A stretch of 64,000 nt of DNA, from positions 19,019,931 through 19,083,930 of the forward strand of contig JAJLRJ010000013.1 in assembly GCA_024195265.1 (NCBI GenBank), given 5' to 3'. The position numbers and the translations under genes are program-made. Positions within the stretch are counted from its first letter, which is position 1. Every line of letters begins with the position of its first letter. The notes under the pieces were generated by a model. The model searched no databases. It saw only the letters and a list, made by a program, of their open reading frames with translations, and had not been told where the DNA came from. This DNA comes from Dendrophyllia cribrosa (Eukaryota; Cnidaria; Anthozoa; Scleractinia; Dendrophylliidae). This document shows, piece by piece, positions 6,601 through 50,705 of the stretch.

Positions 6601-7081
6601 GCATATAAGGGTATGTGGTGTCTTGATGGAATAATACCCTCTCAATGAGGAGTACAAACTCCGTTGAAAGTAAAATTTTGTATTCAGTTTATGCCGAGCT
6701 TGTGGTTCTTCATATTCCAATCGGTGACGGGAGTGAAACCCATGACCCACCGTACACTGGTAGCATGCTCTCAGTCCACTGAGCTACATGGTGACACATG
6801 TCCTGCATACTGCTGGGATCAGAGAGGTCGAGAGTGTCATGTTCCGTGCTGTTTTACTGTTGTAAATAATGTAGTCATAAACACACGGCATTCATGGAAA
6901 GCAGACATTTTTCTTTTTGTTTTTATTAATGTTTTATACTGGTTTTTAGTATATTGTAATTTAGAATGTAGATTTGAGTAATTTATAGTCATCGTCATCA
7001 TGACTTTATTAATGTGTCAATATTACTAAATAATATAGTTTTGTAAGGCCTGATGTTCTTTTAACCGTGTTTAAATAAAGT

Positions 7082-7114
<33 letters not shown>

Positions 7115-10100
7115 CACCGTCACCACTACCACTACCACTACCACCACCACCACCATCACCACCACTACCACTACCACTACCACCACCACTACCACTACCA
7201 CCACCACCACTACCACCACCACTACCACTACCACTACCACCACCACTACCACTACCACCGCCACCACTACCACCACCACCACTACCACTACCACCACCAC
7301 TACCACTACCACCACCACCACCACCACTACCACCACCACCACTACCACTACCACCACCACCACTACCACTACCACCACCACTACCACTACCACCGCCACC
7401 ACTACCACCACCACCACTACCACTACCACCACCACCACTACCACTACCACCACCACTACCACTACCACCACCACCACTACCACCACTACCACTACCACCA
7501 CCACCACTACCACTACCACCACCACTACCACTACCACCGCCACCACTACCACCACCACCACTACCACCACCACTACCACTACCACCACCACCACTACCAC
7601 TACCACCACCACCACCACTCTTGCTGCCGCTGCCGCTGCTACTAATACTACTACTACTTGTATGCAAACTTCATGGAAACAAACGTTTCATCGCAAATTC
7701 TCAGGCTAATTGATTTTGTCCATGAAGCTCATTAGACAGGCGATGAGTCACTTGCTGCTAAACAGGATGAGTGCTTTTCGATTCCACTTGTTATGACCAC
7801 TTCCCTTATTTGTATTTATTTTGCAGGTTCTTCTTGCTACTGTATCGGCAAATGACATGAAATACCTCTTTGGAGCTCTTCTTGATTTACTGGTATGATT
7901 CATATTACTTCTAAAGTTTTTAACTCGTAAATACGCAAAGGGTTGAAAGAGTTATCGCAGTGGGGCAAACATTCACTCGATCGCTCGCTCCCTCCCTCGC
8001 TTGATCGACTGTTAACACTCAGCCCACGATATGTAATGGTCACCTGTCTTACTCATGGAGACAGTGCTGGAGGGAGGGGTGGGTGGGAGTACGACGCAAT
8101 GGTGGGGTCGGTGAAGCAAAACGACTAGGAGAGGGGAAGGGAAGGGAGGGTCGGTGAATATTGAACCCACTATATGTGGTGGTCACCTCCCTTACCAATA
8201 GGAACGGCGTTGGAAGGAGAGGAGGGTGGAGAGTTGGACGCAGGGGGTGGGGGGTCGTAAAGCAAAACGTCGAAAGGAGGGAAGGATCAGGAACGTTTCG
8301 TATTCACGAGTTGGCTTATAGGAGCCTTTGATTTACATCTTGGGTTGGATCCCCTCCTTCGCTGCCTTGCATAACAACGTCCTTGCGACCATGTTTTACC
8401 ACCTTTCTCACAGGAGCCTTTGATTTAAATCTTGAGTTGAATCCCCTCCTTCGCTGCCTTGTATACTAACGTCCTTGCGACCGTGTTTTACCACCTTTTG
8501 TTGGGTCTCAAAAAAAATATCCATTGCAAGTATTCCGCTGTATAGGTTTACAGCACTTGAACCACGGTATGTTCCATAAACACTGCCTAATACCAGCAGG
8601 TCATCAGAAATATTGAACATTTTTATGATTTTCTTTTTTACTTGAGCTTCGGCTGCTTTTTGGTTCTGAGTTCTTCGGAAATTTGTTTTTCAGATGGTCG
8701 AAGATCCTTTACAGTTGTTACGAATAAAATGCGTAGCTGACGAGCAGGGAGATGGCGTTTTAGGTGAGTTAAACATCAAACTGATTAAAAGTTTAAAGTA
8801 ATTCAGCTTTTCCTATTGTTGCTTATTGTTTAATTTTATAAAGGGGATTGGCTACCAGCATACCGAGTTTCGCGGGGGTTGCGGGTTCCATAACACCCCG
8901 CGTGCCTCGCTTAACTGGCAACCAATCCCCTCTCGCCTTAAGACTTGTTAGGAACCTGGGTTATAATTACTGAACTACATGTCCAAGGTTAACCGCGGTC
9001 AAACGAGAGGAATTTGCAAAAGTTAAGCAAAGTACTTAAAAGTTAAGGTTGTCATTTTCACTGTTTAAAGTTTAATATATTGCCAATACACTGTCAATTT
9101 ACCAAACGTTTTGAAAGTTTACCAAAAAAGTTCTAAGCGTTTAAAAACTGTGAACTGCAGAATTGTCGGCGCCATTTGCCAACATAATTTTGATCAGGCG
9201 CAAAGAGATTTCCTAAGTTTTTAACGGAAAAAAGCTCATCACTTTGAGAAAAATTAAAAGATAGTAACGTCAACTAACGTTTCTTATACATCCTTGCCCA
9301 TATTTCCATTTAATATTAAATAAAATCCCACTTAATAAAACGAATAACGCCTCGGACGTTGACCGCGGTGGAGGCTACCAACATGCCGAGTTGCGCGGGG
9401 GTTGCGGGTTCTATAATACCCCCTGTGCCTCGCTTAACTGGCAATCAATCCCCTCTCGCTTTAAGACTGGGTAGGAGCCTGGGTAATAATAGCGTTCCCG
9501 CCCAGATTCTAAAAATAGAAAACTCGCGCAGCATCGTGGGATTGAAATGCGTACAAACATTCAAGAACTATGCAGGAAACTACAAAAAGGCAGGTGCTAC
9601 GAAGCACTGTTCTTGGGTACAACTCGACAATTATCCTCAACATGTACAGGAATCGCAAAAACTGGTGTTTCCGAGGCAGCCATTTTGAAATATTTGTCCG
9701 CATTTCGATCCCACAATGCGGGGGTGGGGAGGGGCGTCGATGGAGAGGGGAGGGTCCGAAGATTGTTTCGTATTCGCGGGTTGTGTCAAAGGAGCCTTTG
9801 ATTAAAATAGCAATCAGTTCTTTTCTTTCCTAGTTTCAGTGGTTTTTTAAATGATTTTCATTTCTAGCCGTTATCAAGACAAGCAATACAGCTGATAGCC
9901 GTCGTGCGTATCAGTGCATCAAATTCTTGGTTCAGCTAGCAAACAAGTGCCCACAAGCCAAAGATTACTTACTTCAAAACTCGTCCCGCTGGCAGTGGGC
10001 CGTGCAGTGGCTCAAGAGAAAAATGAGCGAACATTACTGGGCACCCCATACCTCATCATCTAATGAATACTCCTCCAGCCGAACATTTCAACGAACCTCG

Positions 10101-27200: not shown

Positions 27201-30200
27201 ATCGTTTTCATAGGTTCACTATGGTAAAGAACTATAATTTTAGAATGATCAGGAAATGATTCTTACTATTTTGTTACCTAACTGTTTTACGGTAGCAGTT
27301 TGTAATAAACTGACTATAGGTCAAAGCACAAAGCATTAACAATGGTATTATCTCTTGACCTTTGAAACTGTTATCTCAAAAAACACTTGAAACAGAATTT
27401 TCTAGAACTTTCTAGAACAGGCGTCAAAAAGTTACGGAGAATAATTAAATTTAATTTATAACTCGGGCAGGCTTGGCAGATTGCCAAACAGCACGATTAA
27501 AGAAGGAAATAGCAAACAAACAAACAAACAAAAGAAGAACGAAGGAAAATTAACAGAAGAAATAGAAATAAAAACTTTACCTCTTTTTGGCTTTTCCTTT
27601 CAGCTCCGGATATGCCATGTGTGTCTCTATAACATGGTCAATCTGTATTTCGACAACAACATTTGGATAAGAATGGCCTTCCTGAGCTAACAACTGTTCA
27701 GTTAACTCTATAGATTCATCTGACCAACAAAACAATACATGTACAATACAATGAACTGCCACACAGAAGCCTTTGCAGCCTGACGCCACGTTTACCGGTA
27801 AGTGTTTTCTTTTTAACATCAACATTTGACATGCATAGGACCTGAACATGGTCATTATCCCATGACTGCCCCTGTCATAGGAAGTAGTTTTGATCAGTTT
27901 ACATATTTTAATTTTCCAACAGCAGGGCGCCTCACATGGGTCTTCGTGTCCTATTCGTGCCGTTCCAGTTTGGGTTGCCTACTCACACGTATATTTATTT
28001 ATTTATTTATTTGTCTAATAAAGTTGTCAAAAATGGAGCTTGTCCTAAGCACGGGAACATGTACATCAGTTGGGTCATGATTGGTTTTGCGCTTTGTTTC
28101 TGATTGGCTGAAAAAGGTATTTTATGTGTCCTCACCAGTTTCCCAGTAACACTTTGGCCGCCTTCACTCAACCAAAGGCCTGGCACCATAGCAGAATAGT
28201 ATGGGCCCCAGACTCCTGGAACAAATACTGGCTCTTGATTGATCTGTAGAAAGGGAAAAAGCCATTGGGCAAATCATGTCACTGATGTTCTTACTACATT
28301 TTGATGTCTTCTGTGATCTATAACTGAACAGACACACGGCAAAATGGAATCTATTTGTTTTATACAATGAACAGAAAAGTAAAAAGAGTAAAATTACAAA
28401 CTTGCCTCGTAGCGCTCGACTGTTCGAACATTTGTTCCATGCAGTTTAGGTATTTTTCAAGTCGCCAAGAACATTTTTCGTCTTGGTTTCTTCTTTTTCT
28501 TGCTTCTGCTAAACATTTTTCGAGGCATTCACTTGCTCAACCTAAATAATCTCGCAAACATTTTCAAAACTGTGCGCCATGTTGGACAAAACAAAGCAAA
28601 CAATTTTTCTATGACGTCAGCCGTGCGTCTGTACTCTGATAGATCATAGTCAACGACCAATTACAGAGCGCGTAGTATTCAGTTCATTGTATACATAAAC
28701 CTGCAGTACTTTGTAGTAATTTCAATGTACCAAAGCACCAATCAATGCAAAATGGTTCACCATCATTTAATGGACGTGGACATTATGCAATTTGTGTGTG
28801 ACACCGAAATATGGGCGAGTGAGTGGTCACCCAGGGGGGGGGGGGGGGGGGGGGGGGGGGATCCAATATTAAAATGACAAGGGTGCTCGTTGTACCTTTT
28901 AGAGGTCAAAATTTGTGGATTGGTACTGCTTTGGCTACGAAAATCTAAAATGACCACCGTTAGAATTGTCGCGGTACCTTTTAGGGTATGAGCCGAAAAA
29001 AATGACAGAAATATGACGTGTTGTTTTGAATTAATTGGCACCTCTTAGGGGTAAAACTTCTTTGGAGCCATACCCATCAAACGAGATTCTGGTACCTTTT
29101 AGGGTGTTTTTCGAAAATTTCCGACAAGCACCCTGTCATTTTTACATGGGGTTCCACCTACCCCATGGGTTCCACCTACCCCATGGGTTCCACCTACCCC
29201 ATGGGGTTCCACCTACCCCATGGGTGGGAAGGGGGGGGGGGGGGGGGTGGTCACTTACCGGGTTAAAAACAATGGAAAATTAAAATCACCAGCATTGAAA
29301 GTGCTCCCTGAGTCTCTTAAAAGAGGTTTCCTCTATAGTAATTTGACTGTAGAAGTTTTAGTACTTTAGAAAAGTACCAAGTCGCTTATGAGAGGGGGTC
29401 GCACATTGAGATTCAACTGTATTACCACTGATAAAGATCATTGCAGACTACAGCTGTATTTTGTGATCTTATCAAGCGATTAGATGCAGGTATTATTAAT
29501 ATCTAGACCAGTTTTCAGTTGAGTGTCAACCAATCAGAAGTAAAACCAAAACCAAACTTGAAGTACTGGCCCCCCTTTTTTCCGCACTTGGCAGCAGCTT
29601 CATGTAGTTTCTTTGAGCCCTGAATGGTACATTGGATTGTCTGTGTCTGTTGTGATTGGCAATAGTGATTACTTTCAGTGGGTTTGGTTTTAGTAAACAC
29701 TCAATTGAAAACTGCTCTAATTATGCAGACTAACATCACAAAATACATGTTTTACTTCCCATACTTACAGCCATGTGACAAGATGATGTCCCACAAATGA
29801 TAGCTAGGCGAGAAGTTAAAGGTCTGTTTTCACTGAGAAGTAAACTCAAATCTGCTCCAATAACACCTTTATCGCAACAAGAGAAGAAGTACATGTATAA
29901 ATAAAAGCTATGAGCAGAAGGATGTACACTTTAGTGTTTATAACATCACTATGGTAACATCTCTTACTCAGGTCTCCAGCATGTACATCAATAAGTGAAA
30001 TACCCACTTCCCATAATCCTTTGTCTATACAATCACCATGGAAACCACTCTTACCCAGGCACCTGCATGTGCATTATTTTTATAAGGAAAGTAACAATTG
30101 TCATGGTAACCATTCTTACCCAGGCTTCAAGCCTGTGCATAAATAAGTGAAGTAGTGATCAGTTGGCATCCCTTGCCATAATGCTTTGTTTATACAATCA

Positions 30201-34391: not shown

Positions 34392-37300
34392 CCCCAACCA
34401 AAACAATCAATAAGTGACAGACTATATCACTGGTACATTTTTACAGAACCAAGCCAGGCACAAATTCACATCAAGTCATCCCAAGCTTTGGAGGAGATCT
34501 CAGGGATGTTTCAGGGATGGAAACTTCTTCACCAACCCCCCCCCCCCCCCCCCACCCCCCCAAAAAAAAAGTTTTTACATTCGATTATACTATTTGTATA
34601 CAGTTGAACCTGTATTAATAACGGCCCTGTATTAAGCGGCCACCATTTATTAACTGGCCAGTATTTTTATAGTCCCAAATGTTCACCCATACAAAGTATT
34701 AAGCGGTCGTGGCCGTCCTTTATCATTATCAGTACTACGTTTGTCTGTCTTTGTTACTTTTACCTGCCTGTATTAGGCGGCCACACTTGAATAGAAAGTA
34801 TCCATCATACTTGTTTGTCATTTTATTAGGGTGGAAATATGGTTAAGAGGCAGTTTTGCAACATCCAACTCCTGAAACTCTAGAGTTTCATAACTTAAGC
34901 TTGTGGTGACCAATTGCCACCACAGTTACAAGGTAGAGGTCACTTGATTGTGTTATTATAATATTGTACGTTCAAAAAATTGACATTTGACCACATCCAC
35001 AAAGTATTTTTAATGAACCTGCATTAAGCAGCCAAGTCACGAGGGAGGCTGCTAAATACAGGTTTGACTGTATACATTAAGTAAATACATGTATATCAAA
35101 AAAGATCATCCAGGTCAGTTTACATAAAGTTGGCATTCTCTGTTAAAGGACACTATATGACAAGGAACATGAAGTACTATAAACTGCTGGCCGTATGACA
35201 GGCTAGGTTAGGCTTTACCAGAGCATACAAACATTATCTCAAAATTGTGTCTCAAAATGGACTACATTGTAGATTCCATATCAGCGCATATTCATTTCAA
35301 AAAATTACTGGGGGGCCGGGTATGCCCCTGGACTCCTCCTAGAAAAACATGGCCTTCAGCTACTCAAGACTTCTTCTAGAATTCTACTTCTACTGCTCTG
35401 CAGTAATAATAACACTTGAGCTTTGGCAACCATGACAGCAATTAACAGCAAGGAAAACATCATTGAAAAAAAGAATTCACGCTCTTTGAAATTACTTTGC
35501 AATTGTTCCATTTTGTTAAATTTGTCTGATGTGACTGAATTGTCAAGGAGCTGAATTCAGACTGTGATGGCATTCAAGTTCAAATAGAGAAAGTAAAATT
35601 GAACATAGTGTGTTCATGTTCTTCACAAAACCTATAATTTGATCATTTGACATTGTTGTTTTGCAGGGAACTGCTAAGAAATGTAATATTTTTGCTCATC
35701 AAACCTATTGTTTTGTGCTGTTCTCACTGCCATTGTAGTCATGGTTGCTAAAGCTCCCTATTGGTGGTGTGAACCTGCAGCCCAACGTGCCAGTTTTGTG
35801 GTTTTTGGGAATATAAATCACTCACCTTGAAGAGTCCTTAGTAGCTCTGTATGTAAGAAATTCTGGCAGTTCCAGGAAAAGATCACATCTTTTCCAACAC
35901 TCCTCAGGCAAATTCTCTTTCAACCAAAGCAACTTAGGCATCTCCATCTCTGGTGAGACAGATCCGCCAACATAAGACAATACCTTATGTTTTGTGTCAT
36001 TGATTCTTTGTGTTTGATCCATTGCTCTGTGATCCAGCCACATAATTACATTTCTTTGGGGATCCTGTGAGGGGCTGACAGTCACAGGGCACCCAGTAGA
36101 ATCTAGAGCCACCAGAGAGCACGTGGCATCAAAACCAATGCCTCTTATCTTTTGGATGAAATCCTTGTCACTGCTAACTGCAGAAGAAACTTCCTGAAAA
36201 TTCATACAGGAGTTTAAAATTAGGGACAATGGACTCTAGGGGGAGGCTCTGCCCAAAAGGAGTGTCTTTTTTCACTCTCATAGTATTTGAAAAGATAGCA
36301 CAATTTGAAGTTGTATTATTAGAAAGGGTAGCAAAAAGGGGGAAACATTACATGTACATGCAAAATTACACTAACCACTTCACTGCCATAAAAATGTTGA
36401 GTCAGTATACGGTAGTCCCAGTATGGGTAATCACACGACTGTCGCTTATCTTTGAGGGATAAGGAATGGAACAAGTTTTTGTCAAGTATGTGAAATGGTT
36501 GTTGTTTTATAAAAGTTGATACTTTCTCCTCTACAAGCATCACCTGTCACAGTGCTTGGTTTTTCTCTCTCCAGCTTCTGGAGTGTGTGAAAATGTTGCG
36601 TTAATGTAAAGTAGGTTCACTGTATCTTTGAGAACAGCGATGTATAAGCGCTATATAAATATTATTTTTTTGTCCTATTAAAATTGGTTTAATTTGAAAG
36701 GTATGAGTGTTCATTTATTTTTATATAGATCTAGTGTAAACAAGAAAACCCCAACTCACGATGACTTTTCGGCCCTGGGGGGGCAGGGTTGGCGGGGTTG
36801 ATCTTGCTTAGAATTGACTGATACATTATAACACTCTGATTCCATTGCTAGTGTAAACCATCCTCATTAAACAATGGATATATAGAGAGAAAGCAATGGA
36901 ACTAAAACTCACTGGAAACGCTCTAAATCGCCCCAAAAACCACACAAGAGGCAAGGAAATACACAAGCGAAGTACGGTAGGCAATTTTTATTGAAATCTT
37001 GTTCGTATTTTTTAACTCCTGGAATGGACCGTTTTTCGTCATACAAATCCTTATAATTTCGCTCGTAACGGTTCTGTGACACATATAGCTTGGGCTACCT
37101 GTGGTACCAGTTTTAAACCATGATTGAGACAGCAATAAAAACAAGTTGACTGAAAAATAGTTCCTGTCATTTTTTTTTTTCGGCTCAATACCCTGAACGG
37201 TATCGCGACAATTCTAACGGTGGTCATTTTAGATTTTAGCACCTTATTCAAGCGGGTACCAATCTACAAATTTTGACCCCTAAATGGTACGACGAGGACC

Positions 37301-37596
37301 CCCGTCATTTTTATATTGGGGTCCCTCCCCCCGGGCTGTTTGCAACAGGGAATTGACTTTATATGACAAGCAATATCACTTTATAAGTGCTGCGGGGCAT
37401 GTACAAATCGTACCTTAACGACTGCGCAGACATTACGCCATACATCTTCCGACGACTGTTCATAGTAATCCGACAGAGGCAGCCATATTTGTAAAGGACG
37501 GGTGGAACACGTTACGATCTTGCCATCACTTGAAACAAGAGCTGCCCTTACGCTAGCGGTACCGACATCAACACCGATATAATACGATTCTTCCAT
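18110..37596 (-). CDS. FGGY: FGGY-family carbohydrate kinase (C-terminal exon not found)
   Basis: ATP-dependent sugar kinase of the ASKHA fold; the human orthologue is reported to phosphorylate D-ribulose. Twelve exons, given 5' to 3' on the minus strand: 37596-37414, 36193-35826, 31875-31814, 31519-31442, 30348-30220, 29866-29769, 28243-28136, 27642-27581, 25577-25421, 20832-20758, 18648-18528 and 18204-18110. They total 1,536 nt (512 codons) with every phase consistent. Motifs in order: [13 protein letters not shown] (phosphate-1 loop), [24 protein letters not shown] (Asp expected to be the catalytic base), [19 protein letters not shown] block, LCGGL and [15 protein letters not shown] (adenosine-binding segment). 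The human protein is 551 residues, so about 40-45 C-terminal residues in one more exon are missing. Exon 5 has tandem decayed copies of its donor end. Confidence 0.95.
18528..18648 (-). CDS. FGGY: FGGY exon 11
   Basis: Acceptor ttttttctag, donor gttaga. Encodes [20 protein letters not shown], then [20 protein letters not shown] plus one base, fitting the family's FLCGGLSKN block. Confidence 0.92.
18690..19090. mobile_element. Poly-G family G copy split by MITE A
   Basis: 'ggcaaaatttgtagattggtacc' before 18731 and 'aaaatctaaaatgatcaccc' after 19017 are adjacent in the related copy at 28905-28960. The copy is truncated at its outer ends. Confidence 0.75.
18732..19017. mobile_element. MITE family A, copy 2 (nested)
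   Basis: 286 bp, opposite orientation to copy 1, inserted at TA in a family G element. Confidence 0.88.
19260..19462. repeat. Inverted counterpart of 16248-16430
   Basis: Begins with a ctccctcc tract and ends with 'tgggagttctccattct' and 'tattttccccttaa'. See the partner entry for the shared blocks. Confidence 0.7.
19463..20500. other. Intron stretch without assignable features
   Basis: FGGY intron 10 DNA with no recognisable exon, RNA or clear repeat. From 20510 a ~120-bp segment (cacccaagatgaactctctt...) is an inverted relative of 15435-15535. Confidence 0.4.
20758..20832 (-). CDS. FGGY: FGGY exon 10
   Basis: Acceptor gtttctttcag, donor gtaagt. Twenty-five codons, [20 protein letters not shown] then LQAIA. 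A MITE ends 20 bp upstream of the acceptor. Confidence 0.92.
20853..21396. mobile_element. MITE with AAAGTGCCACTA ends (544 bp)
   Basis: TTAAAGTGCCACTATGA at one end, CGTAGTGGCACTTTAA at the other; inner inverted segments include 'gacgtcaatgactcaac'. It abuts the FGGY exon 10 acceptor region. Confidence 0.85.
21484..21545 (+). repeat. tRNA-like SINE fragment
   Basis: TAGCTCAGTGGTAGAGCG (A box) followed by GGGTTCGAATTCT (B box) on the plus strand. No acceptor-stem pairing is visible, so it is treated as SINE-derived. Confidence 0.5.
21879..22285. mobile_element. MITE with CAGGGCTCGAAATT ends (407 bp)
   Basis: Terminal inverted repeats CAGGGCTCGAAATT / AATTTCGAGCCCTG, with a near-identical tggcgg flank outside each end. 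'gcgactaaaatttt' repeats inside. hAT-type ends are likely. Confidence 0.8.
22497..22720 (+). repeat. Retroposon tail repeat, copy 1 (second at 27822-28020)
   Basis: Both copies share 'gaccTg.ac.tg.tcattatc', 'ctgtcatagg.agta' and 'gtatatttatttatt', ending in a TTTA-rich tail, so a truncated LINE or SINE end is likely. Confidence 0.55.
24131..25100. mobile_element. 970-bp MITE-like element, TATACAGTCAACTC ends
   Basis: TATACAGTCAACTCTC / GAGAGTTGACTGTATA with several internal 'gtccgcttacgaga' motifs in both orientations near the ends. Tc1/mariner/pogo-like TA borders. No intact transposase frame. Confidence 0.8.
25421..25577 (-). CDS. FGGY: FGGY exon 9
   Basis: Acceptor ctcttgtag, donor gtaggt. 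Completes Ser, then [18 protein letters not shown] and [29 protein letters not shown] is a strong FGGY landmark. Confidence 0.94.
25669..26335. mobile_element. MITE with TACCGTAAATGATCTAATAA ends, split by a LINE
   Basis: Inverted ends TACCGTAAATGATCTAATAA and their complement bound 'aataaacgcc' repeats and poly-C runs. A truncated LINE (about 25800-26228) lies in the middle. Confidence 0.82.
25816..26228 (+). pseudogene. Truncated LINE (CR1/Jockey-like) ORF2 C terminus and 3' tail
   Basis: The frame 25816-26079 ends with a motif set typical of the region after LINE reverse transcriptase ([13 protein letters not shown], then a Leu-rich stretch). It is followed by a 3' UTR, 'aataaagtta' and (TCTA)n. 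It is 5'-truncated and inserted in a MITE. Confidence 0.8.
26336..27580. other. FGGY intron, little recognisable
   Basis: An inverted pair 'atgcacttatcattg' (26381) / 'caatgataagtgcat' (26920) suggests a ~555-bp element. The rest has no supported feature. Confidence 0.4.
27581..27642 (-). CDS. FGGY: FGGY exon 8
   Basis: Acceptor aaatacag, donor gtaaag. Encodes [20 protein letters not shown] plus two bases, matching the DHM...H.A.PEL.. segment. Confidence 0.9.
28136..28243 (-). CDS. FGGY: FGGY exon 7
   Basis: Acceptor ttctacag, donor gtgagg. Encodes [20 protein letters not shown] and [16 protein letters not shown], a near-invariant family block. Thirty-six codons, phase 0. Confidence 0.95.
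28831..29246. mobile_element. Poly-G family G copy with 8-bp duplication GTGGTCAC
   Basis: GTGGTCAC at 28823-28830 and 29247-29254 flanks an element starting CCAGGGGGG and holding 'tgacaagggtgctcg' and 'gtagaattg/cgcggtacc'-type family G blocks. A 19-bp minisatellite (ccccatgggttccaccta, 4 units, 29144-29224) lies at its right end. Confidence 0.78.
29504..29719. mobile_element. MITE family A, copy 3 (internally deleted)
   Basis: 216 bp instead of 286; both inverted ends are kept. It lies ~50 bp beyond FGGY exon 6. Confidence 0.8.
29769..29866 (-). CDS. FGGY: FGGY exon 6
   Basis: Acceptor gcgataaag, donor gtaagt. Encodes [20 protein letters not shown], then [12 protein letters not shown]. 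Phase 0 out. Confidence 0.93.
29953..30205 (-). repeat. Three decayed tandem copies of FGGY exon 5 end plus 5' splice site
   Basis: Units 30106-30205, 30041-30105 and 29953-30040 match the end of exon 5 (30220-30285), its donor and ~25 nt of intron. On the gene strand each ends in a donor-like gggtaagaatgg, gggtaagagtgg or gagtaagagatg. One still reads like the LIDAHAGG coding stretch but with substitutions. The middle unit is shortened. Confidence 0.85.
30220..30348 (-). CDS. FGGY: FGGY exon 5 with active-site Asp
   Basis: Acceptor ctgttag, donor gtaaga. Encodes [20 protein letters not shown], then [16 protein letters not shown]. The DAHAGG motif holds the predicted catalytic Asp. The last ~62 nt and donor recur in tandem downstream in the intron. 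Confidence 0.95.
30943..31385. mobile_element. Inverted-repeat element dense in ATCGAT/CAATTGAT motifs
   Basis: Ends CCTGGCCTGACCAATCA / TGATTGATCAGGCTGG. The interior has many overlapping tcgatcaatcgat, aattgatatc and ccaatcgat words on both strands. It ends ~57 bp from the donor side of FGGY exon 4. Confidence 0.6.
31442..31519 (-). CDS. FGGY: FGGY exon 4
   Basis: Acceptor gtattgacag, donor gtaagt. Encodes [20 protein letters not shown], then TKSKL, as in the family's GWDDSFW.MIGLEDFV block. Phases 2-in, 1-out fit. Confidence 0.92.
31814..31875 (-). CDS. FGGY: FGGY exon 3
   Basis: Acceptor tttttctccag, donor gtaaat. Completes Arg, then [20 protein letters not shown] plus one base. SLVCK matches the family. 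Confidence 0.9.
32026..32948. mobile_element. hAT-like non-autonomous element (923 bp)
   Basis: AGACCTTCCAACTC / GAGTTGGAAGGTCT ends, flanked by GCATCTCC and GCATCTCT (8-bp duplication, one mismatch). It contains 'acctggagattgggacct' and repeated 'ccgtgaga' words and no transposase frame. Confidence 0.78.
32990..34150 (+). pseudogene. Truncated LINE ORF2 C terminus and 3' end, interrupted
   Basis: The translation before 33178 contains [12 protein letters not shown]; after ~33465 it continues [20 protein letters not shown] through [13 protein letters not shown] to a stop at 33884. These are the conserved blocks after LINE reverse transcriptase. The 3' UTR ends in (CTAT)n at 34137-34150. It has frameshifts and a ~285-bp insertion. 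Confidence 0.8.
33178..33465. mobile_element. Small element inserted in the LINE
   Basis: AACTATCATAGC near the start; an inverted pair 'attataattcaacacattga' (33272) / 'tcaatgtgttgaattataat' (33446). Part is shared with 62385-62505. Confidence 0.6.
34599..35075. mobile_element. Pogo/Tigger-like MITE (about 475 bp)
   Basis: TATACAGTTGAACCTGTATT / AATACAGGTTTGACTGTATA ends with TA borders; internal 'attaagcggcca' repeats. Confidence 0.78.
35826..36193 (-). CDS. FGGY: FGGY exon 2
   Basis: Acceptor gaattttcag, donor gtgagt. Carries [49 protein letters not shown] and [15 protein letters not shown]. Ends in phase 2. A decayed partial copy of this exon lies near 49072-49175. Confidence 0.95.
37160..37345. 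mobile_element. Poly-G family G fragment
   Basis: Reverse-orientation blocks 'gaacggtatcgcgacaattc', 'taacggtggtcattttagat' and 'acccccgtcatttttatat' match the copies at 28831 and 45564. Confidence 0.7.
37414..37596 (-). CDS. FGGY: FGGY exon 1 with start codon
   Basis: ATG at 37596-37594, then [20 protein letters not shown] with the phosphate-binding motif, ending AVVK at donor gtacga. Sixty-one codons, phase 0. The start agrees with the family N terminus. Confidence 0.95.
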
Positions 37597-39090: not shown

Positions 39091-39630
39091 TAATCTTTTA
39101 TTCGGGCGTAATTATATACATGTAGTTACATGAGAATCAGCCGTAAAAGTAAAAAACATGCTGTATCTTGCATTCTAGAATAAGAAATAAAGTGAGTCAA
39201 ACTTCAAGTCTGTAAAACCGCTCTGGCAAACCGCTATAATTTATACATAATACATAACAACAAGGTTCAACAGCGTATTCGTATTTTTGAGCGTATTAAA
39301 TTTATAACCAATTCAGCCATTTGAAACAGGGCACAATCCACCACACAAACAAAGGATGGTGTGTCTGTGTGTCCATATAGTTCACGTGATTATCGTAGGT
39401 CCCCATATTTAGAATAACGAGAAACATACATTGTACTTTTCAACACCACTTTTATTTTTTTAACTGACTCGGAACAACTAATAACATAAGTTGACCCCGG
39501 GAGGGGGGGGGGAAGTAGTATACAGAATAGCGGTTCTGCAACCGGTGGATCATGTGGATCATGTGGATCAAGCGGGTCCGCATATATTAAGCAATTTAAG
39601 CGGGAAAATGACATCATCGTGGTAAACAAT

Positions 39631-41222
39631 AGGGTTAGAAGGCTTGTTTAAGCTTGCCCAGTCAGTAAAGTATGACGTGATGGTTATAAATACGGTAGTT
39701 TTATATGGGTGTTTGCTTTCTTCTAATTTTTTTTTTTTTTTGTGTGTGTGTTTTGTATTGTCAGCAAAATAATGGTATTATAGAATTGTATTATGAAAGC
39801 GGGTCTGTACAGATTAAAAAGTTATAGGTTCATTGTCTCTTCTATCAACAACTTTGACATCCTAATAAATCGTTTCTAATTTTTTCTCTAGTAAGTGATT
39901 GGTTTAAAAGGGGTTTTTGATCGATTTCATGTTGTAAGTTTAAAGAGGGCCATTCGATTCCTAATTTGTGATGTGTTAATCTCAGTAGATGTATTGACTG
40001 AATTAAATATATGCGTATCTACCTTCTGTACATAACACCCATGGGAGCGCTCTGTTATGGTCCAAATGCAAATGTAGAACACCGTTGAAGGTTTGTAGTT
40101 TAGATTACCGCATAACGAAAAAACACCCAGACAGTTATCATTTCAATTTGTATTTATTTGATATGTTCATCAACGTTCCAAAGGTAGTTAAAAGGTAAGT
40201 CAACAAATCTAAAGTTCCGAGTGATATTTACATACAGCTACACACATTTTTTTTTTTTTTCATTCCACTGTGTATCGTGTGACTTAAATTTAGCTTGAAT
40301 TGCGTTCATATCAACATTGCGTGCTCGATGAAATAAATAGAATAAGCAGTAGTCTCCATCGACGGTCTGCAAAACATTAATTACAAAACTTATGAAAGAG
40401 AATAAAAGCGGTGAAATCGACTAGCAGACTTAAAAGCGTAAACATAATTCCGTTCATACTTCCAATGACACCGAAAACAAACTTAAAAGCGTAAACATAA
40501 TTCCGCACTTCACGACGATAAAACGGCAGTCTGTGAAATTAAAAAAAAAAAAGTTATGAAAGAGGTGATTATTGAAAGCAATGTTCAATGAAAGCAACGA
40601 AAGCAATATTTGAATGATATAAGAAATCGTCTAGCAAGCTTAAAAGCGTAAGCACAATTCCGCACTTCACGACGATAAAACGGCAGTCTGTGAAATTAAA
40701 AAAAAAAAGTTATGAAAGAGGTGATTATTGAAAGCAATGTTCAATGAAAGCAACGAAAGCAATATTTGAATGATATAAGAAATCGTCTAGCAAGCTTAAA
40801 AGCGTAAGCACAATTCCGCACTTCACGACGATAAAACGGCAGTCTGTGAAATTAAAAAAAGTTATGAAAGAGGTGATTATTGAAAGCAATGTTCAATGAA
40901 AGCAATGTTTGAATGATATAAGAAATCGTCTAGCAACCTTTAAAGCTTAAGCACAATTCCGCACTTCACGACGATAAAACGATGGTCTGCAAAACATTAA
41001 TTACAAAACTTATGAAAGAGAATAAAAGCTGTGAAATCGACTAGCAGACTTAAAAGCGTAAACAAAATTCCGTTCATACTTCCAATGACATCGAAAACAA
41101 ACTTAAAAGCGTAAACATAATTCCGCATTTCATAGGGTTAGAAGGCCTGTTTAAGCTTCCCCAGTCAGTAAAGTATGATGCGATGGTTATAAATACGGCA
41201 GTTTTGTATGCGTGTTTGCTTA
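39631..41222. repeat. Direct repeats in left arm
   Basis: A ~90-bp block 'agggttagaagg.ctgtttaag...ggttataaatacgg' occurs at 39631-39720 and 41134-41222. Between them are three tandem ~158-bp units (near 40500-40920) with 'gcacttcacgacgataaaac' and 'gttatgaaagaggtgattat'. The right arm has only two of these units. Confidence 0.85.
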
Positions 41223-41468
41223 GAGCAACTCGGAGCAACTCAGAGCAACTTAGAGCAACTCTGAGCAACTCAGAGTATTAACTCAGAGCAACTCAGAGCA
41301 ACTCAGAGCAACTCAGAGCACAAGAGCGAGCGACTCAGAACATTTGAGTAAGAAACTCAGAGCACTTGAGCGAGCAACTCAGACCATTTGATTGAGCAAC
41401 TTAGAGTAACTCGGAGCAACTCAGAGCAACTCAGAGCAACTCAGAGTAACTCAGAGCAACTCAGAGCA
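41219..41468. repeat. gagcaactca microsatellite, left arm
   Basis: About 20 units of a ~10-bp motif; the mirror copy is at 43747-44006 in the right arm. Confidence 0.9.
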
Positions 41469-41578
41469 ATTCATACGATGATACAGGGTCGATAACAGAT
41501 GAGACTTACTCTTTCAAACTCAATATTTCAAGAATGACATTTATTAAAGACAATTGCAAAATAATGCATTACAGAAAA

Positions 41579-42087
41579 TCACGTATAAAAACTATCGTAG
41601 TATTTTCTCCTTTTTGCTGTGTAAGTCAAGTCTTCATCTTCATTCGACGTTTCTTTAGGTACTAGATCCTCCTGGTCAAACAGTCTGTTCAATAAATATT
41701 TTCGTGTATTGACTGCTGCTTCAGCGGCCTCCGCATAATCCATGTCACCATCTTGCATAAAGCTATGTAATGTTTTCATGACCTTTTTATGCAGTGGGTC
41801 AGTTCTAAGATCACGATACCACTTTAGATAGTGCAGATACAACCTTCGTAGCCTCTTTCTGTAAACAGGGAGTAAAAGATTGGATGCTTGAACCTCCGCA
41901 ACGTCTTGTGGCAAACCCTGCATCGTGTTCTCTTTCACCTGCTCTTCCCAGGTTGAGCTAAGATCATTAATAACTTCCTCACGTAACTTATCCCAAGCAT
42001 CAGTATCATCATTTTCGGCGTCACTAGCTATGCTTTTCTGGTCTTCGTCTTCGTCTTCATCTTCGTCTTCGTCATCATCACCATCGC

Positions 42088-42128
<41 letters not shown>

Positions 42129-42361
42129 GAATCATCACCATCTTTCTCTTCTTCTTCTTTCTTCATCCGACGCATTGCCTTTTCATATTCCTCAAATGGG
42201 TTTTCATCATAACAAGTATCTGGAGAATTCTCTCCCATTCTATACTGGCTGGTCATCTCTTCTTGTTGTTGCTCTGAACGTTTATTACAACATTGCTTCT
42301 CGTGCCTATCTCTGTTGTATTTTCGGCTAAATACCCCTTCACAGAATTGACAAGAATGCAT
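41579..42361 (-). CDS. Zinc-finger protein with acidic tract, left-arm copy (260 aa, intact)
   Basis: ATG at 42361, stop at 41579. Residues 4-24 form a C-X2-C-X12-H-X3-C finger. Residues ~60-110 are Lys/Glu-rich, then a long Asp/Glu run encoded by GAT/GAC/GAA triplets. The C-terminal half (~150-235) is predicted helical with a Leu/Tyr/Arg-rich block, ending in a basic KRRKYY-type tail. AATAAA lies ~34 nt after the stop (complement of 41540-41545), and a TATATAAG box is ~70 bp upstream (42429-42437). It looks like a self-sufficient viral or transposon gene. I know similar single-finger proteins from virus-like elements in cnidarians but cannot name the family. Function unknown; nucleic-acid binding is likely. 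Confidence 0.7.
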
Positions 42362-42571
42362 ATTGATCCACGATGGTTACTCGATGATGACTTGTTGTAA
42401 AATGAATACAGACACATCACCTTGCTTACTTATATAACTGTCACTCAAAAGGGTTTTGTTAATTGAGCATGTCCTTTTGTTAAGCCCATAAGAAAGAGAT
42501 GTGCCACGTATGCAAGGGAGGAACACACCCTTATGGTCAAGGTGGAAATGGATTGGGAGGAATGTTTCGTT

Positions 42572-42636
42572 CCCACTTTCTTTGCAACGCCTCTTTGCAG
42601 CGGTCTTGAGAAGAGGCGTTGCTGTTCGAAAGAGAG
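42572..42636. other. Palindrome spacer (65 bp) with an inner stem
   Basis: The two arms stop matching at 42571/42637. 'gcaacgcctctt' and 'aagaggcgttgc' inside the spacer form a smaller stem, so the whole centre can fold as a hairpin tip. Confidence 0.85.
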
Positions 42637-42709
42637 AACGAAACATTCCTCCCAATCCATTTCCACCTTGACCATAAGGGTGTGTTCCTCCCTTGCATAC
42701 GTGGCACAT
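42572..42709 (-). pseudogene. Start of a basic/amphipathic virion-protein-like gene, cut off by the fold-back
   Basis: ATG at 42709 in the right arm, divergent from the zinc-finger gene (137 bp between starts). About 46 codons continue through the spacer: a CxxC near the start, a Gly-rich stretch, then an amphipathic helix-like segment with Phe, Leu, Arg and Lys. After 42572 the frame runs into the mirror copy of its own promoter end, so the rest is palindrome artefact. Gly-rich plus basic amphipathic composition recalls small core or membrane-active virion proteins of adenovirus-like elements. This is a tentative resemblance only. Confidence 0.4.
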
Positions 42710-42846
42710 CTCTTTCTTATGGGCTTAACAAAAGGACATGCTCAATTAACAAAACCCTTTTGAGTGACAGTTATATAAGTAAGCAAGGTGATGTGTCTGT
42801 ATTCATTTTACAACAAGTCATCATCGAGTAACCATCGTGGATCAAT
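42710..42846. promoter_or_regulatory. Divergent promoter region, right arm
   Basis: 137 bp between two divergent start codons, with TATATAAG at 42772-42779 directed to the zinc-finger gene. The mirror copy in the left arm is at ~42362-42497. Confidence 0.5.
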
Positions 42847-43079
42847 ATGCATTCTTGTCAATTCTGTGAAGGGGTATTTAGCCGAAAATACAACAGAGAT
42901 AGGCACGAGAAGCAATGTTGTAATAAACGTTCAGAGCAACAACAAGAAGAGATGACCAGCCAGTATAGAATGGGAGAGAATTCTCCAGATACTTGTTATG
43001 ATGAAAACCCATTTGAGGAATATGAAAAGGCAATGCGTCGGATGAAGAAAGAAGAAGAAGAGAAAGATGGTGATGATTC

Positions 43080-43112
<33 letters not shown>

Positions 43113-43637
43113 GATGATGATGATGATGGCGATGGTGATGATGACGAAGACGAAGATGAAGACGAAGACGAAGACCAGAAAAGCATAGCTAGTGACGCCG
43201 AAAATGATGATACTGATGCTTGGGATAAGTTACGTGAGGAAGTTATTAATGATCTTAGCTCAACCTGGGAAGAGCAGGTGAAAGAGAACACGATGCAGGG
43301 TTTGCCACAAGACGTTGCGGAGGTTCAAGCATCCAATCTTTTACTCCCTGTTTACAGAAAGAGGCTACGAAGGTTGTATCTGCACTATCTAAAGTGGTAT
43401 CGTGATCTTAGAACTGACCCACTGCATAAAAAGGTCATGAAAACATTACATAGCTTTATGCAAGATGGTGACATGGATTATGCGGAGGCCGCTGAAGCAG
43501 CAGTCAATACACGAAAATATTTATTGAACAGACTGTTTGACCAGGAGGATCTAGTACCTAAAGAAACGTCGAATGAAGATGAAGACTTGACTTACACAGC
43601 AAAAAGGAGAAAATACTACGATAGTTTTTATACGTGA
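42847..43637 (+). pseudogene. Zinc-finger/acidic-tract gene, right-arm copy, frameshifted
   Basis: Mirror copy of the left-arm gene, 791 bp against 783 bp. The difference lies in the GAT repeat near 43080-43130, where an 8-bp length change shifts the frame. The first frame stops at 43188, and the second half is open again from ~43195 to 43637. Upstream TATATAAG at 42772-42779; AATAAA at 43671-43676. It could be slippage or an assembly error in the repeat. Confidence 0.75.
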
Positions 43638-43746
43638 TTTTCTGTAATGCATTATTTTGCAATTGTCTTTAATAAATGTCATTCTTGAAATATTGAGTTT
43701 GAAAGAGTAAGTCTCATCTGTTATCGACCCTGTATCATCGTATGAA

Positions 43747-44006
43747 TTGCTCTGAGTTGCTCTGAGTTACTCTGAGTTGCTCTGAGTTGCTCTGAGTTGC
43801 TCCGAGTTACTCTAAGTTGCTCAATCAAATGGTCTGAGTTGCTCGCTCAAGTGCTCTGAGTTTCTTACTCAAATGTTCTGAGTCGCTCGCTCTTGTGCTC
43901 TGAGTTGCTCTGAGTTGCTCTGAGTTGCTCTGAGTTGCTCTGAGTTAATACTCTGAGTTGCTCAGAGTTGCTCTAAGTTGCTCTGAGTTGCTCCGAGTTG
44001 CTCTAA
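43747..44006. repeat. Microsatellite (tctgagttgc)n, right arm
   Basis: Mirror of 41219-41468, with the same pattern of irregular units. Confidence 0.9.
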
Positions 44007-46028
44007 GCAAACACGCATACAAAACTGCCGTATTTATAACCATCGCATCATACTTTACTGACTGGGGAAGCTTAAACAGGCCTTCTAACCCTATGAAATG
44101 CGGAATTATGTTTACGCTTTTAAGTTTGTTTTCGATGTCATTGGAAGTATGAACGGAATTTTGTTTACGCTTTTAAGTCTGCTAGTCGATTTCACAGCTT
44201 TTATTCTCTTTCATAAGTTTTGTAATTAATGTTTTGCAGACCATCGTTTTATCGTCGTGAAGTGCGGAATTGTGCTTAAGCTTTAAAGGTTGCTAGACGA
44301 TTTCTTATATCATTCAAACATTGCTTTCATTGAACATTGCTTTCAATAATCACCTCTTTCATAACTTTTTTTAATTTCACAGACTGCCGTTTTATCGTCG
44401 TGAAGTGCGGAATTGTGCTTACGCTTTTAAGCTTGCTAGACGATTTCTTATATCATTCAAATATTGCTTTCGTTGCTTTCATTGAACATTGCTTTCAATA
44501 ATCACCTCTTTCATAACTTTTTTTTTTTAATTTCACAGACTGCCGTTTTATCGTCGTGAAGTGCGGAATTATGTTTACGCTTTTAAGTTTGTTTTCGGTG
44601 TCATTGGAAGTATGAACGGAATTATGTTTACGCTTTTAAGTCTGCTAGTCGATTTCACCGCTTTTATTCTCTTTCATAAGTTTTGTAATTAATGTTTTGC
44701 AGACCGTCGATGGAGACTACTGCTTATTCTATTTATTTCATCGAGCACGCAATGTTGATATGAACGCAATTCAAGCTAAATTTAAGTCACACGATACACA
44801 GTGGAATGAAAAAAAAAAAAAATGTGTGTAGCTGTATGTAAATATCACTCGGAACTTTAGATTTGTTGACTTACCTTTTAACTACCTTTGGAACGTTGAT
44901 GAACATATCAAATAAATACAAATTGAAATGATAACTGTCTGGGTGTTTTTTCGTTATGCGGTAATCTAAACTACAAACCTTCAACGGTGTTCTACATTTG
45001 CATTTGGACCATAACAGAGCGCTCCCATGGGTGTTATGTACAGAAGGTAGATACGCATATATTTAATTCAGTCAATACATCTACTGAGATTAACACATCA
45101 CAAATTAGGAATCGAATGGCCCTCTTTAAACTTACAACATGAAATCGATCAAAAACCCCTTTTAAACCAATCACTTACTAGAGAAAAAATTAGAAACGAT
45201 TTATTAGGATGTCAAAGTTGTTGATAGAAGAGACAATGAACCTATAACTTTTTAATCTGTACAGACCCGCTTTCATAATACAATTCTATAATACCATTAT
45301 TTTGCTGACAATACAAAACACACACACAAAAAAAAAAAAAAAAATTAGAAGAAAGCAAACACCCATATAAAACTACCGTATTTATAACCATCACGTCATA
45401 CTTTACTGACTGGGCAAGCTTAAACAAGCCTTCTAACCCTATTGTTTACCACGATGATGTCATTTTCCCGCTTAAATTGCTTAATATATGCGGACCCGCT
45501 TGATCCACATGATCCACATGATCCACCGGTTGCAGAACCGCTATTCTGTATACTACTGGGGGACTCCCATATAAAAATGACGGGGGTGCTCGCCGTACCT
45601 TTTAGGGGTCAAAATCTAAAATGACCACCGTTAGAATTATCGCGGTACCTTTTGGGGTATGAGCCGAAAAATATGACAGAATATGACATGTGTTGGTTTA
45701 GAATTGGTACCTCTTAGGGGTAAAAATTATTTTTAGCCATGCCCATCAAACGTGATTCTGGTACCTTTTAGGGTATTTTTCGAAAATTTCCGACGAGCAC
45801 CCCCGTCATTTTTATATGGGAGTCATCCCCCCCCCCCCCCCCCCCCCGGGAAGTTGACATGTAGCGAGCAAATGTCGCGCCCTTACAAATAAAAATCAAT
45901 GGGTTTTATTAACATGATAAACTTTAAATTTATAAACTTATAATACAAGTTGACCGTGTATCGAGCGGAAGTCACGCTCTTACAATTAAAAAATCAATGC
46001 CGTTATTTTAACATGTTACCATTTTAAC

Positions 46029-47576
46029 TTAAGTATAATCAAGACGTTTTATAAGGGGCACTTGGCAAAGAACGACTGGCGATTCTTCCTTGGTCCCATC
46101 TAGGGAGCCCAAAGTGAAATCGCAGGGAAAGTCATTCCACTTTCCTGATAAGGCCGATTTATTGCCATACATGTTTGTACAATCCTCATTATACCTATAG
46201 TCGTTCGGTTCGTTTGGTGCCCAATTCGTATACCCCCCCTCTATTGGAGTGTCATCAATCCAGTAGAAGTCCGAGTCCACTTTAGCTTGCACAACAGGCG
46301 CCTTTGGGGTGCTCACTTCTTTCCGTTCGATCCCAAGCCACGCGCCAAAGAGAGTGACTCTGTCTGACGTATTACCAGCTTACGAATGAATTCGTTTTCT
46401 TCTGCCGATTTGATTATAGCAAGATCTCCCCCTTTAATCTGGCACAGCGCTCGCGCATCTGCCTGTTTCGGGGTTGGAAAATCGAAGATAAAATAACAGT
46501 TACCGCGGGTGTATTGACAGCCTGTAAAAAAAACAACAACAACAGTGTAAGTCCACGGAAAAATTTACAGACAAATGCATGAAAAACAAAAATAATAAAT
46601 GCACGCTTTCTAACACAGCCACATTCCGTAAATTTGATGAGTATAATCTTCTTCCTTGTGTCGTAAGTTTTCAATTCACTGGATTAACACTGTGTATTTG
46701 GTGCGCATGTTTGCCCTATCAGTTTACCCATGATCTTCCAACAAGGGCGAAGCCGGCCTCTAGATGCGATGACCATAGTCGACTAGCAGTACCATGTAAT
46801 ATATCAATAACAACATAATAATAATAAAAACAATAATAATAATATATCAATAAACGGGTGATTTTCTCTTTCTTTCAGCAATACGACGAAAAAATAATTC
46901 CAAAAATTACTGGATAAATGACCATAAATGGCCGTTTTTATGCTACAGACGTTAATATCGTCTGAGACGTTAAAGTCGTCTCGAGACGACTTTAACGTCT
47001 TGTATAAAAACGGAAAATAAGCCAGACGGATTTAACGTCTGACGACTTTAACATCTTCTTTTAAGTGCGTCGTTCAGACGCACTTAACAGACGACTTAAA
47101 CGTCTTAGACGTTAAATACGTCTAGTATAAAAACGGGACGGCCTTAAAGAGGACGGATTTAGCCCTATTTGTATATTCGTGCTCTTAAAATTTATTTGGG
47201 GACGACTTTAGTCGTATCCAGTCACTTCCGAGAATAGTTTTCTTTAGAAAATCATGTGTTTTTCCCTGTGACCATCTACTTTAAAGCGTCCCGTTTTTAT
47301 ACCAGACGCATTTAACGTCTGAGACGTTAATTGAATCTGGACGACTTTAACGTCTCAAGCATAAAAACGGCCAATGACTTTGTGGAGCAACAACAGAACC
47401 AGGAATTCTGCGCTTCAAGAAATCGACGGCGTTTCGAGGACGGTTTCTGGCACGAAATGATCACTGAAGATCCGTCTAGGCCACGCAGCGTAAGCAAATG
47501 ATAACTAACCTGGTGCTGCCATAGTAGTGACAGCAGTAAACATGATCACAAGAACGGACAGCAACTTGATATCCAT
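46029..47576 (-). pseudogene. Secreted C-type lectin domain gene, copy 1, with frameshift
   Basis: Exon 1 (47576-47510) encodes a start Met and a hydrophobic signal peptide ending TMAAPG, donor gttagt, phase 1. Exon 2 (46521-46029), acceptor tttttttacag, encodes a C-type lectin fold: GGDLAIIKSAEENEFI, then GYTNWAPNEPNDY with the EPN triad of mannose-type calcium sites, WND and paired Cys, ending at TAA 46029. A one-base frame change near 46355-46365 separates the two halves, and the exon length does not fit an open frame. It may be a recent pseudogene or a sequence error. The intron holds a MITE at 46929-47373. It would be an extracellular sugar-binding protein if intact. Confidence 0.75.
46929..47373. 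mobile_element. MITE packed with GACGTTAAAGTCGTC-type palindromes
   Basis: TGGCCGTTTTTATGCT / AGCATAAAAACGGCCA ends. Inside are at least ten short palindromic or inverted words built on agacgtta / taacgtct, plus inner 'agtataaaaacgggac' ends that suggest nested half-elements. It lies in the lectin copy 1 intron. Confidence 0.8.
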
Positions 47577-50246: not shown

Positions 50247-50705
50247 TCAAAAGGGCTTCTGGCAAAGAACGACTGGCGAGTCATCACTGGTCCAACCGTC
50301 CTGAGGATTGCCCAAAGAGAAATCGCAGAAAAAATCACTCCATGATCCTGTGGTGGCGTAAATGTTTCCACAATCCTCGTTCTGCCGATACAGCTGAATC
50401 CTGTTGGGTTCACCTTGTTCCCAATTCGTATACCCCCCCTCTACAAAGGTGTCATCATGCCAGTAGATCTTCGAATCCCGTTTAATTCGCCTGAATCCAA
50501 GCCACGCGCCAAACACGGTGGTTGTAGTCTGCTGCAATAACAGGTTATGAATGAATTCGTTTTCTTCTGCCGATTTGATTATAGCAAGGTCTCCCCCCAT
50601 ATCCTGGCACGCCGCTCGGCGCTCGAGCATCTGCCAGTTTCGGGGTTGGAGTATCGTCGATGAATTAACACTTGTCTCCATTTCTCACCCAGCCTACTGG
50701 ACAAC
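50247..50705 (-). pseudogene. C-type lectin domain gene, copy 2, damaged
   Basis: An open frame from an ATG at 50681 to a stop at 50247 covers most of the lectin fold: GGDLAIIKSAEENEFIHNLL, GAWLGFR, GYTNWEQGEPNRI (EPN) and WSDFFCDF. The upstream part in the expected frame (GCPVGWVRNGDKC) has TAA where copy 1 has a Tyr codon, and a 7-nt excess near 50625 shifts the frame. No signal-peptide exon was found upstream. Probably a pseudogene; a rescued short protein from the inner ATG would lack secretion. Confidence 0.7.

Follow-up and report, generated by a model that had tools for sequence, protein, structure and literature searches.

A palindromic element with Polinton-like ends in the coral Dendrophyllia cribrosa belongs to a multicopy family that probably arose by fold-back before integration

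We analyzed a 64,000-nucleotide stretch of the Dendrophyllia cribrosa genome (here called the window; GenBank assembly GCA_024195265.1, contig JAJLRJ010000013.1, positions 19,019,931 to 19,083,930), which contains at 39514-45557 a 6,044-bp inverted repeat with two arms of about 3 kb flanking a 47-bp spacer. This element is probably one copy of a multicopy, palindromic, nonautonomous family of the Polinton/Maverick (adintovirus) type that arose by fold-back before integration. The evidence lies in its ends and target duplications, in an identical centre at independent sites, and in palindromic relatives that bear a frame resembling B-family DNA polymerase (PolB). The parts of the element and its flanks are as follows.

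39514-45557, no strand: whole palindromic element, 6,044 bp
39514-42580, plus strand: left arm, interpreted as the fold-back copy
42628-45557, minus strand: right arm, interpreted as the first-made arm
42581-42627, no strand: central spacer
44811-45557, minus strand: terminal repeat (arm positions 1-747), with a mirror copy at about 39514-40260
40478-40981, plus strand: 156-bp tandem repeat array, of which the left arm holds one unit more than the right arm
41222-41473, plus strand: 10-bp minisatellite, with a mirror array at 43743-44004
39508-39513, plus strand: target-site duplication GGGGGA, left copy
45558-45563, plus strand: target-site duplication GGGGGA, right copy

An earlier reading of the same DNA from its letters alone (the sequence-only reading) had described near-identical inverted arms of about 3 kb around a 65-bp spacer, with complementary outer ends and GGGGGA directly outside both. 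All of this was confirmed, except that the spacer measures 47 bp, or about 63 bp if counted from the first mismatches between the arms. When the two arms were aligned, we found four length changes (2, 157, 10, and 8 bp), each within a tandem or homopolymer repeat, and only two substitutions, both at the very centre. With repeats and gapped columns excluded, the arms showed 0 differences in 1,642 columns; with repeats included, in a wider alignment with other copies, they showed 7 in 2,722. The element is thus a self-complementary molecule with one terminal region at both ends, as in a snapback defective genome, and its inverted arms are long and internally repetitive, as in foldback elements of the Galileo type.

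The element begins with AGTAGTATACAG and ends with CTGTATACTACT, each of which occurs once in the window, so that AGTAGT stands at the left end and ACTACT at the right. Mavericks are described as carrying (AGT)2 at the 5′ end, (ACT)2 at the 3′ end, and 6-bp target duplications (PMC8097293). Both features are present in the window element and its relatives: matching ends with 6-bp duplications were found in 16 of the 17 elements for which both ends were read, representing 14 distinct sites. The proposal in the sequence-only reading of Polinton-like long inverted ends with a 6-bp duplication is therefore borne out by the Maverick end motif and by the recurrence of the duplications.

At the window locus, GGGGGA is the sole 6-mer match between the two 60-base flanks (1 of 3,025 pairings), and the insertion lies in a dispersed host repeat, at its G-rich end. 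When the flanks are joined through a single GGGGGA, their alignment to two further copies of this repeat in the window, and to its own opposite end, is free of gaps at the joint, although they are not identical to these base for base. Since the joined flanks match empty host-repeat sites without a gap, we regard this as a real insertion with a 6-bp duplication; a chance likeness of the GGGGGA flanks is ruled out by the same empty sites. The symmetry of the palindrome ends precisely at the element termini, beyond which the host DNA is unlike on the two sides, so the mirror was formed before insertion. A chromosomal fold-back after insertion is ruled out, since the host flanks lie outside the palindrome. 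The host repeat is about 300 bp long with inverted G-run ends and has further copies in the window at 28847-29150 and 37176-37332.

45558-45840, no strand: dispersed inverted-repeat host element, with its other piece at 39499-39513

We then searched the species' own 627-Mb, 22-contig assembly, in which the window is C5:19019931-19083930, using as queries the 1,001 bases at the start of the element (40 of 188 candidates scored) and its 428-bp centre (40 of 72 candidates scored). The terminal query gave 96 matches, and 36 of the best 40 formed 18 inverted pairs. Inverted arms were present in all 17 pairs examined, for four of which, at about 13 kb, the centre only was read; one side was read of the remaining pair (C19:29041591). 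The entire centre was recovered at six loci with 97 to 100% identity (the window, L009, L010, L011, L015, and L037, the copy on C18). These represent five target sites and five independent insertions, since L009 (C5:18601394-18608030) has the flanks of the window copy, from which it lies 458 kb apart. Likewise, L013 and L014 on C4 share flanks and lie 158 kb apart; to judge from their flanks, both pairs may be local duplications or uncollapsed haplotypes. Because the same centre recurs at five independent insertions, the palindrome is itself a form that spreads. Five further loci (L013, L014, L038, L039, and L040) have the same stem with material missing on one side; L040 is a single arm in which ACTACT directly follows the stem, with a perfect TGTTTT duplication. 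Unstable palindromes would be expected to lose material from one side in this way. Smaller relatives of 4.4 to 4.7 kb (L012, L017, and L018) have arms of 1.76 to 1.79 kb, a spacer of 0.85 to 1.1 kb, and perfect 6-bp duplications; the middle is rich in minisatellite in L017 and L018, and L012 holds one partial zinc-finger gene.

The structure of the centre suggests how the palindrome was made.

42592-42691, minus strand: cupiennin piece, 100 bp, identical to positions 2041-2140 of L031
42611-42622, minus strand: 12-nucleotide stem of the central hairpin, original copy, within the cupiennin piece
42584-42595, minus strand: inverted copy of the 12-nucleotide stem

Read on the minus strand, a cupiennin coding stretch runs up to the conserved LKTAAK and is followed by a 12-nucleotide inverted copy of the sequence just upstream. 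Beyond it come a few codons of the normal cupiennin continuation in a shifted frame (AKKVG), and then the mirror image begins. This pentapeptide occurs once in 127,996 six-frame residues; it was predicted as the continuation from the protein family before genome data were consulted, and the intact genomic copy L031 then showed the same. At the fold-back site, 9 Watson-Crick pairs and one G-T pair form among 11 positions, and only 2 of 2,919 arm 11-mers pair at 9 or more positions. The central hairpin was more stable than all shuffled versions (z = -10.9; 0 of 200 shuffles equally stable). From the sequence, we interpret the join as the trace of a growing strand that switched template twice; the right arm would then have been made first and the left arm copied from it.

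A series of events consistent with this join can be proposed, although hairpin replication, help in trans, and the order of events are our inference. As a linear element replicated, a new strand would run from one end through the terminal repeat, the tandem repeats, and the zinc-finger gene into the cupiennin piece. There it would switch briefly onto itself, leaving the 12-nucleotide inverted copy, and resume; it would then fold back on the short imperfect inverted repeat and copy its own strand to the end. The resulting hairpin would have a single element end, from which replication would produce a linear palindrome with two identical ends; an integrase supplied in trans would insert this palindrome with a 6-bp duplication. 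The palindrome would keep replicating and integrating, and in many of these cycles it may have taken the form of a hairpin, with one arm as the template for both. The sequence-only reading had taken the element for a snap-back defective copy of the terminal half of a linear element. The fold-back-like centre and the virus-like genes agree with that view, whereas the five insertions show that it is not a one-off, and the arm is a mosaic.

If a palindrome were propagated through a hairpin, the two arms of a copy should resemble each other. We aligned both arms of eight copies and compared pairings among six independent insertions. Arms of one copy differed by 0.26 to 0.71%, and independent insertions by 0.55 to 3.1% in the first-made arm and 0.19 to 2.9% in the copy arm. 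Across the six insertions, the mean difference was 0.475% within a copy versus 1.9 to 2.2% between copies, and no pairing of arms other than the actual one was as close (1 of 720). In the 1,642 nonrepeat columns, the arms within a copy differed at 0 positions in the window copy, 0 in L015, 1 in L011, 2 in L037, 9 in L010, and 15 in L013, compared to 10 to 55 (first-made arms) and 1 to 54 (copy arms) between independent insertions. In the tree, the two arms of L011 paired, as did those of L015 (support of 1.0 each), and the L037 arms fell in one clade with L039 and L040 (0.999). Because arms match within copies, clearly so in four of the six insertions, the fold-back likely preceded integration; the palindrome spreads in this form, possibly by way of a hairpin. 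Most simply, the majority of insertions would derive from a molecule in which one arm had been copied from the other shortly before, as happens in a hairpin intermediate.

The same arms would also be kept alike if chromosomal gene conversion, not hairpin replication, were at work, and the absence of differences in the window copy and L015 is equally expected on that account. This possibility, which we consider rather unlikely, concerns the upkeep of the arms only and is compatible with the origin favoured here. It is opposed by L013 and L014, a single shared insertion in which arms cluster by side and not by copy (first-made arms 4 and copy arms 1 of 1,642 columns apart; first-made versus copy arm 15 and 12 within each locus). 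Since the duplicated locus clusters by side, no arm matching has occurred since the duplication; these loci show that matching is not quickly renewed after insertion, although they are one recent case.

Larger members of the family carry a polymerase-like gene. In elements of 13.1 to 13.7 kb, only the initial ~745 bases of the 1,001-base query are matched, and the terminal repeat of the window element is 95.6 to 97.7% identical to the ends of two of them. The centre of the element on C16 again matches the arm of L010 (locus positions 499-1,044; 92 to 93%). In the two elements tested, the ends are inverted copies of each other with 99.8 to 99.9% identity over 3.94 kb, and each arm has a long open PolB-like frame with DxE- and DTDS-type motifs (YADFES and TDTDS), which we take to be PolB motifs; its start and end are presumably Polinton-like as well. 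In Pfam, this frame matched Endonuclease_7 alone, just below the cutoff in one copy and just above it in the other, with no DNA_pol_B_2 match at E ≤ 0.1, and comparison with PDB and NCBIfam gave weak matches only. Of the six centres read, four are palindromic through the middle and two contain a spacer, about 316 bp long in one and about 348 bp in the other; these elements show two or more unrelated types of centre, which together with the window centre would imply three or more separate fold-backs.

Used as a query in the same genome (40 of 592 candidates scored), the PolB piece gave 23 near-full-length matches at ≥95% identity, 20 of which form ten inverted pairs 4.7 to 16 kb apart; a 24th match at this level is a 132-bp fragment. 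The terminal repeat and matching duplications were present in the pairs on C1 and C2, whose ends were read. For the unpaired copies on C17 and C19, a terminal repeat lies at the near end, and the far-side sequence read (9 kb and 8.5 kb, respectively) holds none; for that on C16, neither stretch read holds one. About 7.6 to 8 kb beside each of these three PolB pieces lies outside the stretches read, and partners of these copies may figure among the candidates beyond the 40 scored. The genome search for full-length relatives suggested in the sequence-only reading thus succeeded in that PolB-like frames stand beside the same terminal repeat; the relatives examined proved palindromic, and the limited searches returned no nonpalindromic, integrase-bearing parent.

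The arm of the window element is a mosaic, to judge from its sequence: its terminal repeat is common with the 13-kb PolB elements, and its central 100 bp come, inverted, from a separate capsid-type module. Arm positions 749-847 and 2867-2966 are 99 to 100% identical to two segments of a high-copy module that lie about 2 kb from each other and in opposite relative orientation, and positions 1554-2831 are ~83% identical to other zinc-finger loci (L028 to L030). The second piece was found at 25 loci in the centre search, including L031, L032, and L043. Two copies of the module agree at 99.7% over 3.9 kb, with compact frames on one strand, among which an intact cupiennin frame was read in L031 and L032. 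One frame gave weak AAA-type matches below the cutoff, and six others gave no capsid match in Pfam. The right boundary common to L031 and L032 is without an ACTACT end. One could imagine that this Polinton lineage is normally palindromic and split into a palindrome with the polymerase in both arms, another with the zinc-finger regulator in both arms, and a separate high-copy capsid-type module, much like a segmented virus, with each palindrome replicating from its two identical ends and its arms matched through a hairpin; we consider this unlikely.

Each arm of the window element has a zinc-finger gene.

41579-42376, minus strand: zinc-finger protein frame, left copy, open, with the first ATG at 42361
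42832-43637, plus strand: zinc-finger gene, right copy, with the frame disrupted by the 8-bp repeat-length change

The left frame has 265 codons between stops. A protein search (7,991 candidates scored) found 53 relatives, and the named ones come from corals. The cupiennin piece at the centre had 164 matches, and the 120 listed among them include the "cupiennin" of a Rhodactis coral adintovirus, and the central 100 bp is identical to part of an intact adintovirus-type cupiennin gene of the same genome. For both proteins taken together, the relatives with a named source belong to Montipora, Oculina, and Rhodactis. Some adintoviruses are reported to carry zinc-finger genes (PMC11071296). Pfam gave nothing at E ≤ 1 in three window frames and no match above the cutoff in five cupiennin or six zinc-finger relatives. 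Viral contigs searched with the zinc-finger protein and its alignment, two cupiennin alignments, and one cupiennin protein yielded no relative, nor did one further scan of genome contigs. A zinc-finger structure model (mean predicted local distance difference test score of 63) had no match at E ≤ 0.001 in viral or PDB libraries, and a by-eye comparison of listed matches showed no contig shared by zinc-finger and cupiennin relatives. The capsid gene content of the window element is the 100-bp cupiennin piece only: no integrase, polymerase, or complete capsid gene was seen in it, and its open reading frames include no PolB-type frame.

Several observations weigh against a fold-back origin followed by spread of the palindrome. 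No nonpalindromic parent with this arm was found among the 40 of 592 PolB candidates scored or in the end stretches and the far stretches of 8.5 to 9 kb read beside the three unpaired copies, and no integrase could be tied to the family in a search with PF00665 (150 of 3,549 candidates scored, mostly retroelement-like by our reading). One element, L039, lacks a matching duplication. In the tree, the arms of the window copy, L009, and L010 are intermixed; the copy arm of L010 differs at a single one of 1,642 columns from that of the window, compared to 9 between its own arms, and the arms of L013 are no closer to each other than its copy arm is to that of L010 (15 each). Arm matching is therefore clear in four of the six insertions and fails or is unclear in L010 and L013. 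In addition, a mosaic arm means more events than one fold-back, so several switches would have occurred before or together with it.

An alternative is an expansion of the terminal repeat after integration, in which a break inside an integrated Polinton is repaired by copying the opposite terminal repeat (TIR1-F1-F1-TIR2, with TIR denoting terminal inverted repeat) and the product is later transposed. Such growth of inverted arms through recombination repair has been proposed for Galileo, and Polinton repeat expansion is mentioned in the same paper (PMC3573991). The smaller relatives L012, L017, and L018, with their short arms and long spacers, are in keeping with it. End-joining repair also yields short templated inserts, which the 12-nucleotide inverted copy resembles. 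We nevertheless judge it distinctly unlikely, for a duplicate made after insertion keeps side-specific differences whereas the arms match per copy in four of six insertions, and three or more distinct types of centre exist, of which two belong to elements of over 13 kb. Moreover, a 47-bp spacer between 3-kb arms follows from fold-back but would require run-off copying under the expansion model.

A classic foldback DNA transposon with no virus connection is highly improbable: the long, internally repetitive inverted arms resemble those of Foldback and Galileo as described in PMC3573991, but such a transposon does not account for the Maverick end motif with 6-bp duplications, the PolB-like frame carried by relatives that share the terminal repeat, or the adintovirus-type gene piece at the centre. 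An assembly artefact, either a mirror-image duplication of a single arm or a full element assembled without its middle, is scarcely credible and is ruled out as sole cause by the same centre at five independent target sites (six places in all), even though the window arms differ mostly in repeat length, as assembly errors would, and the two locus pairs with shared flanks may be uncollapsed haplotypes; the centre contains sequence that a plain mirror error would not create, and independent insertions differ (10 to 55 of 1,642 columns in first-made and 1 to 54 in copy arms) yet keep the form.

Elsewhere in the window, two minus-strand C-type lectin exons (46032-46379 and 50250-50684; Pfam Lectin_C) have similar surroundings and are apparently a tandem duplication, and a low-complexity stretch at 7064-7710 gives long frames of simple repeats in several reading frames.

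Fold-back genomes are an expected by-product of protein-primed linear elements. To our knowledge, these genomes are known from particles and plasmids and not as integrated, multiplied families. Here, the chromosomes would preserve a single fold-back together with its exact point of joining, its dispersal to five or more sites, the loss of single arms, and, in separate palindromes, a polymerase frame. It becomes testable whether Polintons give rise to satellites from their own ends, whether the integrase needs the last bases only, and by what means a large palindrome persists in the genome of an animal. Such palindromes would be lost wherever assembly or annotation dismisses them as errors. By title and start of abstract, no palindromic Polinton family was found in the literature covered, which lacks most subscription papers. 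The family is not categorically new, since terminal-repeat expansion of Polintons is already mentioned in PMC3573991.

Among known systems, Polintons/Mavericks and adintoviruses can be compared with the window family through the AGTAGT//ACTACT ends, the 6-bp duplication, the long terminal repeats, the PolB-like frame in relatives, and the adintovirus-type cupiennin gene in the same genome. The window element differs from them in being almost wholly palindromic, with both arms holding a zinc-finger gene; in intact vertebrate Mavericks, the terminal repeats span 46 to 1,447 bp (PMC8097293). The snapback genomes of adeno-associated virus are likewise self-complementary partial genomes from one end region, as described in PMC8235507, but those are packaged virus genomes, whereas the window family is integrated, multicopy, and flanked by target duplications. 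Galileo and Foldback share the long, internally repetitive inverted arms, and arm expansion has been proposed for them; however, Galileo is a cut-and-paste element of the P superfamily (both according to PMC3573991), while the ends and relatives of the window element are Polinton-like. Lastly, the inverted dimers of yeast formed by origin-dependent inverted-repeat amplification resemble our proposal in the path from hairpin-capped linear DNA through an inverted dimer to integration, and in the use of short interrupted inverted repeats; these integrate by homologous recombination (both from PMC4689423), whereas the window element has defined ends and a 6-bp duplication.

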